Source of the DNA: Amnibacterium kyonggiense
GTDB lineage: Bacteria; Actinomycetota; Actinomycetes; Actinomycetales; Microbacteriaceae
NCBI RefSeq assembly: GCF_004364555.1
Contig: NZ_SOAM01000001.1
Coordinates: forward strand, 1,178,001 to 1,242,000
Direction of reading: 5' to 3'
DNA: 64,000 bases
The notes under the pieces are model-generated. The model did not search any database. It was not told the origin of the DNA and worked only from the letters and a program-made list of their open reading frames with translations. Below, piece by piece: positions 56,468-58,458 of the stretch. A program made the position numbers and the translations under genes. Each line of letters starts with the position of its first letter. Within the stretch, counting starts at the first letter, position 1.

Positions 56468-56746
56468 TTGCGATCGGGGCCACGGGCGTTCGAGGCGCTG
56501 CAGTCGGAGCACCCGGACGAGCCGCGGCTCGTCCACGAGGTCGCGGGTGCCTACGACACCGCGGGTGATCAGGAGCGGGCGGCGCCGCTGTACGAACGAG
56601 CGCTCGCTGCGGGGCTCGCGGGCGACGTCCTCCGCCGCTGCCTCGAGCAGCGCGGCAGCACGCTGCGGAACCTCGGCCGGTACGCGGCCGCCGCTGCCGG
56701 GAACGCGGAGCACCTGCTCGAGCGCGATCGCGCGCCATGGGGCTGA
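56468..56746 (+). pseudogene. Tetratricopeptide repeat protein remnant
   Basis: The open frame of 92 codons from TTG encodes RAFEALQSEHPDEPRLVHEVAGAY and PLYERALAAGL, GSTLRNLGRYAAA, which match the beginning of a widespread actinobacterial TPR family of about 150 residues. The C-terminal half is missing: the frame stops right after LLERDRAPWG. The N-terminus is also short and the start codon lacks a ribosome-binding site. It is probably a decayed fragment left 9 bp after the preceding gene. Confidence 0.5.
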
Positions 56747-56754
56747 TGTGCGTC

Positions 56755-56783
56755 TTGTGCAGCCGTCCTGACCGTCGTAACGT
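56755..56783 (+). promoter_or_regulatory. Promoter upstream of a 24-residue ORF and rtcB
   Basis: -35 TTGTGC (56755-56760), 17-bp spacer, -10 TAACGT (56778-56783). Transcription from here would read through the short ORF into rtcB. Confidence 0.55.
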
Positions 56784-56838
56784 CTGACGGCTGCGCCGGA
56801 CCCGGCGCGCGTCCGGTCGAGCAGAGGAAGGAACCGCG

Positions 56839-56913
56839 ATGTCGTATCGGAAGAGCGAACGCCCCGTGAACCTCCAGCCCCTGCTCCCGGCCCGTCCGAG
56901 CGCGACCCTCTAG
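56839..56913 (+). CDS. Short leader ORF (24 residues) upstream of rtcB
   Basis: This ATG ORF is preceded by an excellent Shine-Dalgarno (GAGGAAGGA, about 6 nt spacing). It encodes a basic peptide beginning MSYRKSERPV and ending ARPSATL, closed by TAG. It lies between a good promoter and rtcB. A CGCCCGG/CCGGGCG hairpin (56925-56951) follows. It could be a true small protein or a leader peptide controlling rtcB. No similar peptide is known to me. Confidence 0.5.
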   Translation: MSYRKSERPVNLQPLLPARPSATL

Positions 56914-57029
56914 TCGTCGCGTCTCGCCCGGGCCGGGTCATGGTCCGGGCGTCCCCGTCTGCCTTCCGCGCGGGAGGCCGCGTGCCCGAACCGTGGTCAC
57001 CGGTCTCCACCACAGGAAGGAGCGGTCTC

Positions 57030-58202
57030 GTGCAGACCCTCGCCAAGCGGCTCGTGAGCTGGGCGAGCGTGCTCGAGGAGTCCACCCTCGAGCAGGCCCG
57101 CACCAGTGCGCGGATGCCGTTCATCCACCCGCACATCGCCCTGATGCCGGACGCCCACCTCGGGCTCGGCGCCACGGTCGGTTCGGTGATCCCGACGCTC
57201 GGCGCCGTGATGCCCGCCGCCGTCGGCGTCGACATCGGCTGCGGGATGATCGCGGTCCGCACGCAGTTCGACCGGGGCGCCCTCGAGGCGCGCGGCGACC
57301 TGCCGGCCCTCCGGGCGCAGATCGAGCGCGCCGTCCCGCTGTCCGCGGGCGCGGCGAACGCGAAGATCGTCGCGACCGCGGCGCCGCGGATCACGGAGCT
57401 GGAGGCGCTCGCCGCCGAGGCCGGGTTCACGCCGGACCGGTACGCCGAGGCGTGGCGGCAGCAGCTCGGGTCGCTCGGGAGCGGGAACCACTTCATCGAG
57501 GTCTCCGTCGACGAGCAGGACCGGGTGTGGGCGTTCCTCCACTCGGGCAGCCGAGGCGTCGGGAACCGGATCGCGCAGGCGCACATCAAGGTCGCGCAGG
57601 CCCTGGTGACGCAGTGGTGGATCGAGCTGCCGGACCGCGACCTCGCCTACCTGGTGGAGGGGACCGCCGAGTTCGATCGGTACATCGCCGAGCTGCGGTG
57701 GGCGCAGCGGTTCGCGCTGCTCAACCGCGAGGAGATGATGGACCGCGTCGTGCGGCAGCTCTCGGAGCACCTCGGCGAGACCGTCGTGGAGCAGGAGCGG
57801 ATCAACTGCCACCACAACTTCACGCAGCGGGAGCAGCACTTCAAGAAGACCGTCTGGGTCTCCCGGAAGGGCGCGATCTCCGCGCGCGAGGGCGAGGCCG
57901 GATTGATCCCGGGATCGATGGGCACCGCCTCCTACGTGGTGGAGGGGCTCGGGAACCGGATGGCGCTCGAGTCGTCGCCGCACGGCGCGGGCCGGGCGTA
58001 CTCCCGGTCGGCCGCGCGGCGGACCTTCACGCACGACCAGCTCCGCGAGGCGATGGCCGGCATCGAGTTCCGCGACACCGACGCGTTCCTCGACGAGATC
58101 CCGCAGGCGTACAAGCCGATCGAGCAGGTCATGGCCGACGCCGCCGACCTCGTCCGGATCCGGCACGTGCTGCGGCAGCTCGTCAACGTGAAGGGCGACT
58201 GA
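57030..58202 (+). CDS. rtcB: RNA-splicing ligase RtcB
   Basis: This 390-residue protein has its GTG start chosen by GAAGGAG 7 nt upstream and by the family N-terminus (QTLAKRLVSWASVLEESTLEQ). The metal ligand Cys71 lies in GVDIGCGMIAVRT. The metal-binding SLGSGNHFIE and HSGSRGVGNR follow. The guanylate-forming His318 is in SSPHGAGRAYSR. RtcB joins RNA 2',3'-cyclic phosphate or 3'-phosphate ends to 5'-OH ends with GTP and Mn2+, repairing cleaved tRNA or rRNA. No archease or RtcA gene is visible. An upstream ORF and long leader suggest post-transcriptional control. Confidence 0.94.
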   Translation: MQTLAKRLVSWASVLEESTLEQARTSARMPFIHPHIALMPDAHLGLGATVGSVIPTLGAVMPAAVGVDIGCGMIAVRTQFDRGALEARGDLPALRAQIERAVPLSAGAANAKIVATAAPRITELEALAAEAGFTPDRYAEAWRQQLGSLGSGNHFIEVSVDEQDRVWAFLHSGSRGVGNRIAQAHIKVAQALVTQWWIELPDRDLAYLVEGTAEFDRYIAELRWAQRFALLNREEMMDRVVRQLSEHLGETVVEQERINCHHNFTQREQHFKKTVWVSRKGAISAREGEAGLIPGSMGTASYVVEGLGNRMALESSPHGAGRAYSRSAARRTFTHDQLREAMAGIEFRDTDAFLDEIPQAYKPIEQVMADAADLVRIRHVLRQLVNVKGD

Positions 58203-58210
58203 GCCCGGCC

Positions 58211-58253
58211 CCGTTCCGTCCTGCAGGACGCCCCGTCCTGCAGGACGGAACGG
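58211..58253. repeat. 20-bp perfect inverted repeat between convergent genes (palindrome 8)
   Basis: Arms 58211-58230 and 58234-58253 (CCGTTCCGTCCTGCAGGACG) enclose CCC. Each arm itself holds the palindrome CGTCCTGCAGGACG. It is a probable bidirectional terminator of rtcB and the small convergent gene. Confidence 0.9.
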
Positions 58254-58260
58254 CCGTCGA

Positions 58261-58458
58261 TCACCCCAGCCCGCCGAAGCCGCCGTTGATGATGCTGCCC
58301 GCGGCGCCCCGCTCGAGGAGCGTCTGGACGTCGTCGTCGCGCTCGTGCTCCGCCTCGGCGTCGAAGTCGACCACGCCGTTCGTCTGGTCGAACGGCTTCT
58401 CGGATCCGGTGAGGTGGACCCAGGGCTTGGCCGCCGGGTTCGGGTGCTTCTTCGACAC
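58261..58458 (-). CDS. Small hypothetical protein (65 residues)
   Basis: The GTG start with GAGAGGAG 6 nt upstream gives MSKKHPNPAAKPWVHLTGSE. It is hydrophilic, with a C-terminal glycine-rich end (SIINGGFGGLG). There are no membrane helices. The Shine-Dalgarno, codon bias and clean stop support a real gene. The function is unknown; the Thr-Gly-Ser-Glu segment and acidic middle (DAEAEHERDDD) give no family. Confidence 0.65.
   Translation of the reverse strand: MSKKHPNPAAKPWVHLTGSEKPFDQTNGVVDFDAEAEHERDDDVQTLLERGAAGSIINGGFGGLG

Follow-up and report, generated by a model that had tools for sequence, protein, structure and literature searches.

How is rtcB controlled in bacteria that lack RtcR, its known regulator? 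The question is raised by the rtcB locus of Amnibacterium kyonggiense. The window (the whole 64,000-nucleotide stretch of DNA analysed here) belongs to a 3.71 Mb genome in which searches gave no match to RtcR (PF06956), with a positive E. coli control, and no RtcA; a PrfH partner was represented there by only two sub-cut-off matches, probably ordinary release factors. The nearest relatives of its rtcB are from Microbacteriaceae. Elsewhere, tRNA fragments induce rtcB by way of RtcR, which in Salmonella binds tRNA 5' halves and switches on rtcBA (PMC7790460). The comparisons set out below make it quite likely that the leader of rtcB in Amnibacterium is itself the control element, a transcription attenuator governed by the ribosome and responding to failing translation.

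Anatomy of the leader and the proposed switch

The elements of the leader, with the helices as predicted, are as follows.

56755..56760, plus strand: -35 box TTGTGC, read from the sequence; the relatives have TTGAC-like boxes at the equivalent place
56778..56783, plus strand: -10 box TAACGT, 17-base spacer from the -35 box
56793..56808, plus strand: 5' hairpin GCGCCG/CGGCGC, directly after the likely transcription start
56825..56831, plus strand: Shine-Dalgarno sequence of the upstream open reading frame (uORF), AGGAAGG, 7 bases before the ATG at 56839
56839..56913, plus strand: uORF MSYRKSERPVNLQPLLPARPSATL, 24 codons, from ATG 56839 to stop TAG 56911-56913
56886..56894, plus strand: region 2, the 5' strand of antiterminator helix A, CCCGGCCCG, within the uORF
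56897..56906, plus strand: 5' strand of antiterminator helix B, CGAGCGCGAC, partner 56916-56926
56916..56926, plus strand: 3' strand of antiterminator helix B
56925..56951, plus strand: terminator hairpin, regions 3 and 4, CGCCCGG...CCGGGCG, 11 bp, -22.1 kcal/mol
56952..56960, plus strand: weak U-tract TCCCCGTCT, 3 T in 9; most relatives have strong T-runs
56983..56992, plus strand: possible region 5, TGCCCGAACC (tentative), repeating part of the terminator 5' arm
57030..58202, plus strand: rtcB, RNA ligase, 390 codons, GTG start

Much of this had been recognized in the initial annotation, whose TTGTGC-N17-TAACGT promoter, 24-codon reading frame with its Shine-Dalgarno sequence, CGCCCGG/CCGGGCG hairpin and 116-base gap between the uORF stop and the rtcB GTG at 57030 are all found in place. 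That the uORF is strongly translated, as was also stated there, is what its Shine-Dalgarno sequence would suggest. What went unnoticed is that the hairpin is one arm of a switch. Its 5' arm is common to the terminator and the antiterminator: in helix A, CCCGGCCCG (56886-56894) pairs perfectly over 9 bp with CGGGCCGGG (56929-56937) of that arm. Helix B is a second, 10-bp helix that carries the stop codon in its loop; in L082, a relative of the same genus, the loop bases have changed and the stem bases are identical.

The leader follows a TPR-like reading frame, FEALQSEHPDEPRLVHEVAGAYDTAGDQERAAPLYERAL... (56468-56746, plus strand), which lies between an oxidoreductase gene and the leader and has the appearance of a short or truncated gene. 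Directly 3' of rtcB is a perfect 20-bp inverted repeat, CCGTTCCGTCCTGCAGGACG / CGTCCTGCAGGACGGAACGG (58211-58253), probably a two-way terminator toward the small minus-strand reading frame, SKKHPNPAAKPWVHLTGSEKPFDQTNG... (58261-58458), that is convergent with rtcB.

In the proposed switch, RNA polymerase would transcribe the uORF with a ribosome following behind. On reaching the uORF stop, that ribosome would cover region 2 at the uORF end, and regions 3 and 4 would then fold into the terminator; a ribosome stalled early in the uORF, or never loaded, would instead leave region 2 free to form a helix with region 3 that encloses the stop codon, blocking the terminator and permitting transcription of rtcB. 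The model predicts, in short, that finished translation of the uORF turns rtcB off and that stalled or absent translation turns it on. Translation of the uORF, termination at the hairpin in this organism and the natural signal are each things that we infer.

Conservation and base pairing in front of rtcB

Regions of up to 600 nt 5' of rtcB were taken from the window and from two sets of 80 loci (161 regions, 154 distinct). Curation, partly by eye, assigned a short uORF bearing a Shine-Dalgarno sequence to 73 of the 161, namely the window, 45/80 loci of the first set and 27/80 of the second, mostly from Microbacteriaceae; the 71 distinct peptides run to 19-52 codons, and putative homology among such very short uORFs is based on position, not on peptide sequence. 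The gene rtcB itself was found in 26 of the 150 family genomes searched and, at the level of the order, in 80 of 297. In a phage collection, RtcB relatives are encoded in 640 records (655 when L016 was the query), many of them from actinobacterial phages.

The initial annotation had proposed a leader ORF that senses the state of the ribosome and had looked to its conservation as a check. Of the 81 rtcB genes represented in an RtcB protein tree, 46 have the uORF leader and 35 lack it; where kept, it comes with a covarying antiterminator and terminator, and the sensing proposal is well supported by comparison. Presence of the leader changes 7 times on the tree versus 26.5 times with shuffled labels; the 46 leader genes all group together with 12 leaderless ones on the same side of a split whose support is weak (70/89). 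Subtercola boreus P27479 carries rtcB twice, and of the two copies L009 has the uORF leader and L067 lacks it.

The flanking elements recur as well. A TTGN3-N16..18-TAN3T box lies at most 120 nt upstream in 52/71 uORF leaders versus a fraction of about 0.00 in mononucleotide shuffles, and a hairpin of at least 6 bp within 120 nt of the uORF occurs in 63/71 versus 25% of shuffles. Downstream, a GC-rich stem begins 11-39 nt past the uORF stop in nearly all of the 71, often as GCCCCGcACC..GGTcCGGGGC followed by T-runs, so that in the relatives an intrinsic terminator is found between uORF and gene. A strict automatic rule, calling for a uORF with Shine-Dalgarno sequence and then a T-tailed terminator stem within 80 nt, is satisfied at 30/80 rtcB loci of the first set and 22/80 of the second, versus 1/187 for other genes in the uORF-bearing loci. 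The window itself fails this rule because its T-tract is weak.

Such weak T-runs, which the window shares with Curtobacterium and Rathayibacter, allow a different reading, in which the uORF acts through Rho or a pause hairpin and not through an intrinsic terminator, at least in these lineages. The stem is kept in all three despite the weak tract, and in the window the RNA after the hairpin is C-rich, as this reading would have it; the clear T-runs of most relatives speak against it, and we consider it unlikely.

Evidence for attenuation by alternative pairing comes from tests of the two helices against each other. For 39 of 41 representative leaders (L040 and L090, with misassigned or doubtful terminators, were omitted from the pairing, substitution and ribosome-folding tests), the terminator 5' arm makes 9.65 expected pairs with the uORF end or stop region versus 6.67 in dinucleotide shuffles (p=5e-9). 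The control pairing of the terminator 3' arm with upstream sequence gives no signal in the same 39 (8.96 vs 8.90, p=0.94), nor does the test on 22 ordinary terminators of similar sequence, found by a covariance model built in this analysis (6.90 vs 7.26, p=0.50). Two further signals in 39 leaders are tentative, one in which the terminator 3' arm pairs with sequence downstream of it (10.25 vs 9.36 in shuffles, p=0.001) and one for pairing of the Shine-Dalgarno sequence with the uORF end (14.9 vs 12.3, p=2e-4). By minimum free energy, at least 5 antiterminator pairs form in 67 of 68 leaders (71 less L040, L090 and L038). The minimum free energy fold of L113 has no 2:3 helix.

The bases that make these pairs differ among lineages. 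In Microbacterium the partner of ACGCCCCGCACCG is the uORF end, which is near-invariant (PPARAV); other lineages have GGTTAC:GTAACC, GGCACG:CGTGCC and others in place of this pairing, and in Curtobacterium-type leaders region 2 coincides with the stop or follows it. An alignment of 32 leaders, chosen by the author from 65 prepared and leaving out most of the Curtobacterium type, has the antiterminator 74.4% paired versus 29-49% when slid, with 13 double-change cells, a number reached in 0/500 shuffles; on the same alignment the terminator is 87.5% paired with 11 double-change cells (0/500). Counted by pairs, only 4 antiterminator pairs show a double change, which is not unusual (298/500 shuffles reach it). 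The two helices share a strand, and on this one alignment both carry compensatory changes. By sequence comparison, then, the uORF, the terminator and the predicted, mutually exclusive 2:3 helix are conserved and covarying, and the antiterminator shares the terminator 5' arm and overlaps the uORF end or stop, as in an attenuator.

The leader also appears specific to rtcB, judging by a search of 150 family genomes with the RNA model, in which the 21 non-rtcB matches inspected were ordinary gene-end terminators; 3 of the 21 had been flagged with a short in-frame ORF and were read as ends of longer genes. Neither the window's leader nor those of 7 relatives matched any Rfam cis-regulatory family above the gathering score, and an E-value search of 56740-57060 returned just three matches, all far below gathering. 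An M-box magnesium riboswitch lies near rtcB in a Renibacterium MAG (L046:656-826).

The switch can also be modelled, by folding the RNA ahead of a ribosome set codon by codon (assumed ribosome edge 14). In the window, the modelled terminator probability is 0.00 for naked RNA, 0.00-0.02 for A-site codons up to L12, and 0.89-0.97 from Q13 to the stop, where it is 0.97; a different assumed edge displaces the switch point at L12-Q13 by one codon. Equilibrium folding does not reproduce the switch in most relatives, for which it favours the terminator everywhere, even on naked RNA (median 0.95; 39/41 representatives). In these relatives the antiterminator must therefore win in time, forming before the terminator 3' arm is made.

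The uORF peptide and the likely signal

The substitution pattern of the uORF bears on two other readings. Among 20 independent related uORF pairs, with the last six codons excluded, changes at codon positions 1/2/3 number 74/74/66, and of 139 changed codons 116 are nonsynonymous and 23 synonymous; the frame is therefore kept and the peptide is not. A CCTCCGG-type anchor near the uORF end sits in frame 0 in 27 of 33 matching leaders, at several spacings from the start, the remaining 6 being variant forms or from other genera. An independent small protein, the other possibility raised in the initial annotation, could claim the good Shine-Dalgarno sequence and start and a frame open in every curated leader. 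With no purifying selection on the peptide, and with base pairing accounting for the uORF end, we reject it as very improbable.

The same lack of peptide conservation tells against a drug-specific arrest-peptide leader of the erm/ABC-F kind, in which one antibiotic would stall the ribosome at a set motif. The layout equals that of antibiotic-inducible uORF attenuators, and in E. coli a link between rtc genes and antibiotics that target the ribosome has been described (PMC12606134). The peptides, however, evolve without constraint over their varied lengths, and no conserved stalling motif of the erm type was found in them; LQ occurs in 23/41 representatives versus 12.7 in shuffled peptides, and LQ aside the peptide is free. 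We judge this reading improbable, and a fixed arrest motif is rejected.

Codon content is unusual. Glutamine makes up 8.7% of uORF residues versus 2.4% of those encoded by the first 30 codons of genes, a 3.6-fold enrichment (p about 7e-31, without correction for relatedness), and is present in 41/41 representative uORFs; Gly, Ile, Val, Met and Trp are low. UAG is the stop in 27/41 representatives versus 38/251 genes (Fisher 6e-11), and may be favoured by pairing in Curtobacterium-type leaders. One could accordingly propose that the leader works like the trp/ilv attenuators of amino-acid biosynthesis and senses charged tRNA-Gln (perhaps also Asn or Tyr) and not general failure of translation, the more so as the modelled switch point in the window falls at L12-Q13. 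Against this, glutamine is enriched but dispersed, with no run of one regulatory codon for an end product, its positions show no peak with respect to region 2 (15 vs 14.2 in shuffles; 37/41 representatives), and we know of no role for RtcB in glutamine supply. Such an attenuator strikes us as rather unlikely.

RelE-type A-site cleavage prefers CAG and UAG, and would suit the Gln codons, the UAG stops and the chemistry of RtcB; this candidate was set aside, as the PF05016 toxin has no match in the genome and CAA is enriched in the uORFs too.

For the preferred reading, an attenuator responding to failing translation, the natural signal would be cut tRNAs, damaged ribosomes or ribosome-targeting drugs, and damage that RtcB can repair would therefore raise RtcB. 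We offer only tentatively the more specific idea of a self-closing damage circuit in actinobacteria that lack RtcR, in which a Gln-rich uORF, ending mostly in UAG, would directly sense cut tRNAs or damaged ribosomes when its translation fails, and so turn on the ligase that rejoins them, its codon make-up mirroring the tRNAs that these bacteria most often have cut.

Relation to known regulatory systems

No rtcB attenuator, leader peptide or uORF of this kind is described in the titles and abstracts of the open-access papers searched, a body of work outside which most subscription papers fall. The leader would put a known kind of switch to a new use, a reading well supported by comparison, with a signal that we infer. 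Antibiotic-responsive uORF leaders precede whiB7/wblC and ABC-F genes, and in these, as in toiL-topAI of E. coli, a uORF reports translation stress as proposed here, with a different target gene. The toiL leader responds to at least five drug classes, stalls ribosomes at different positions and works through translation control and Rho, in contrast to the intrinsic terminator proposed for the rtcB leader (PMC12121999).

The architecture itself, a uORF followed by a 2:3 antiterminator that competes with a 3:4 terminator, is shared with trpL, with ilvB1 of M. tuberculosis (PMC13236596) and with the ilvB-II motif, a uORF attenuator in Corynebacterium (PMC10272879). In ilvB1 a ribosome that has reached the stop hides region 2, which is the logic proposed for rtcB (PMC13236596). 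Unlike the amino-acid attenuators, the rtcB leader has no single-codon run, and its target is an RNA ligase and not a biosynthetic gene.

Also close is the RtcR/sigma-54 control of rtcBA in Salmonella and E. coli, which acts on the same gene and whose trigger, RNA damage in the translation apparatus, is plausibly shared (PMC7790460). That system employs a protein that binds tRNA 5' halves, whereas here the control would sit in an RNA leader. A conserved switch of this kind would tie RNA repair to ribosome performance without a protein sensor, and would carry ribosome-controlled attenuation beyond biosynthesis and drug resistance into the repair of the translation machinery.
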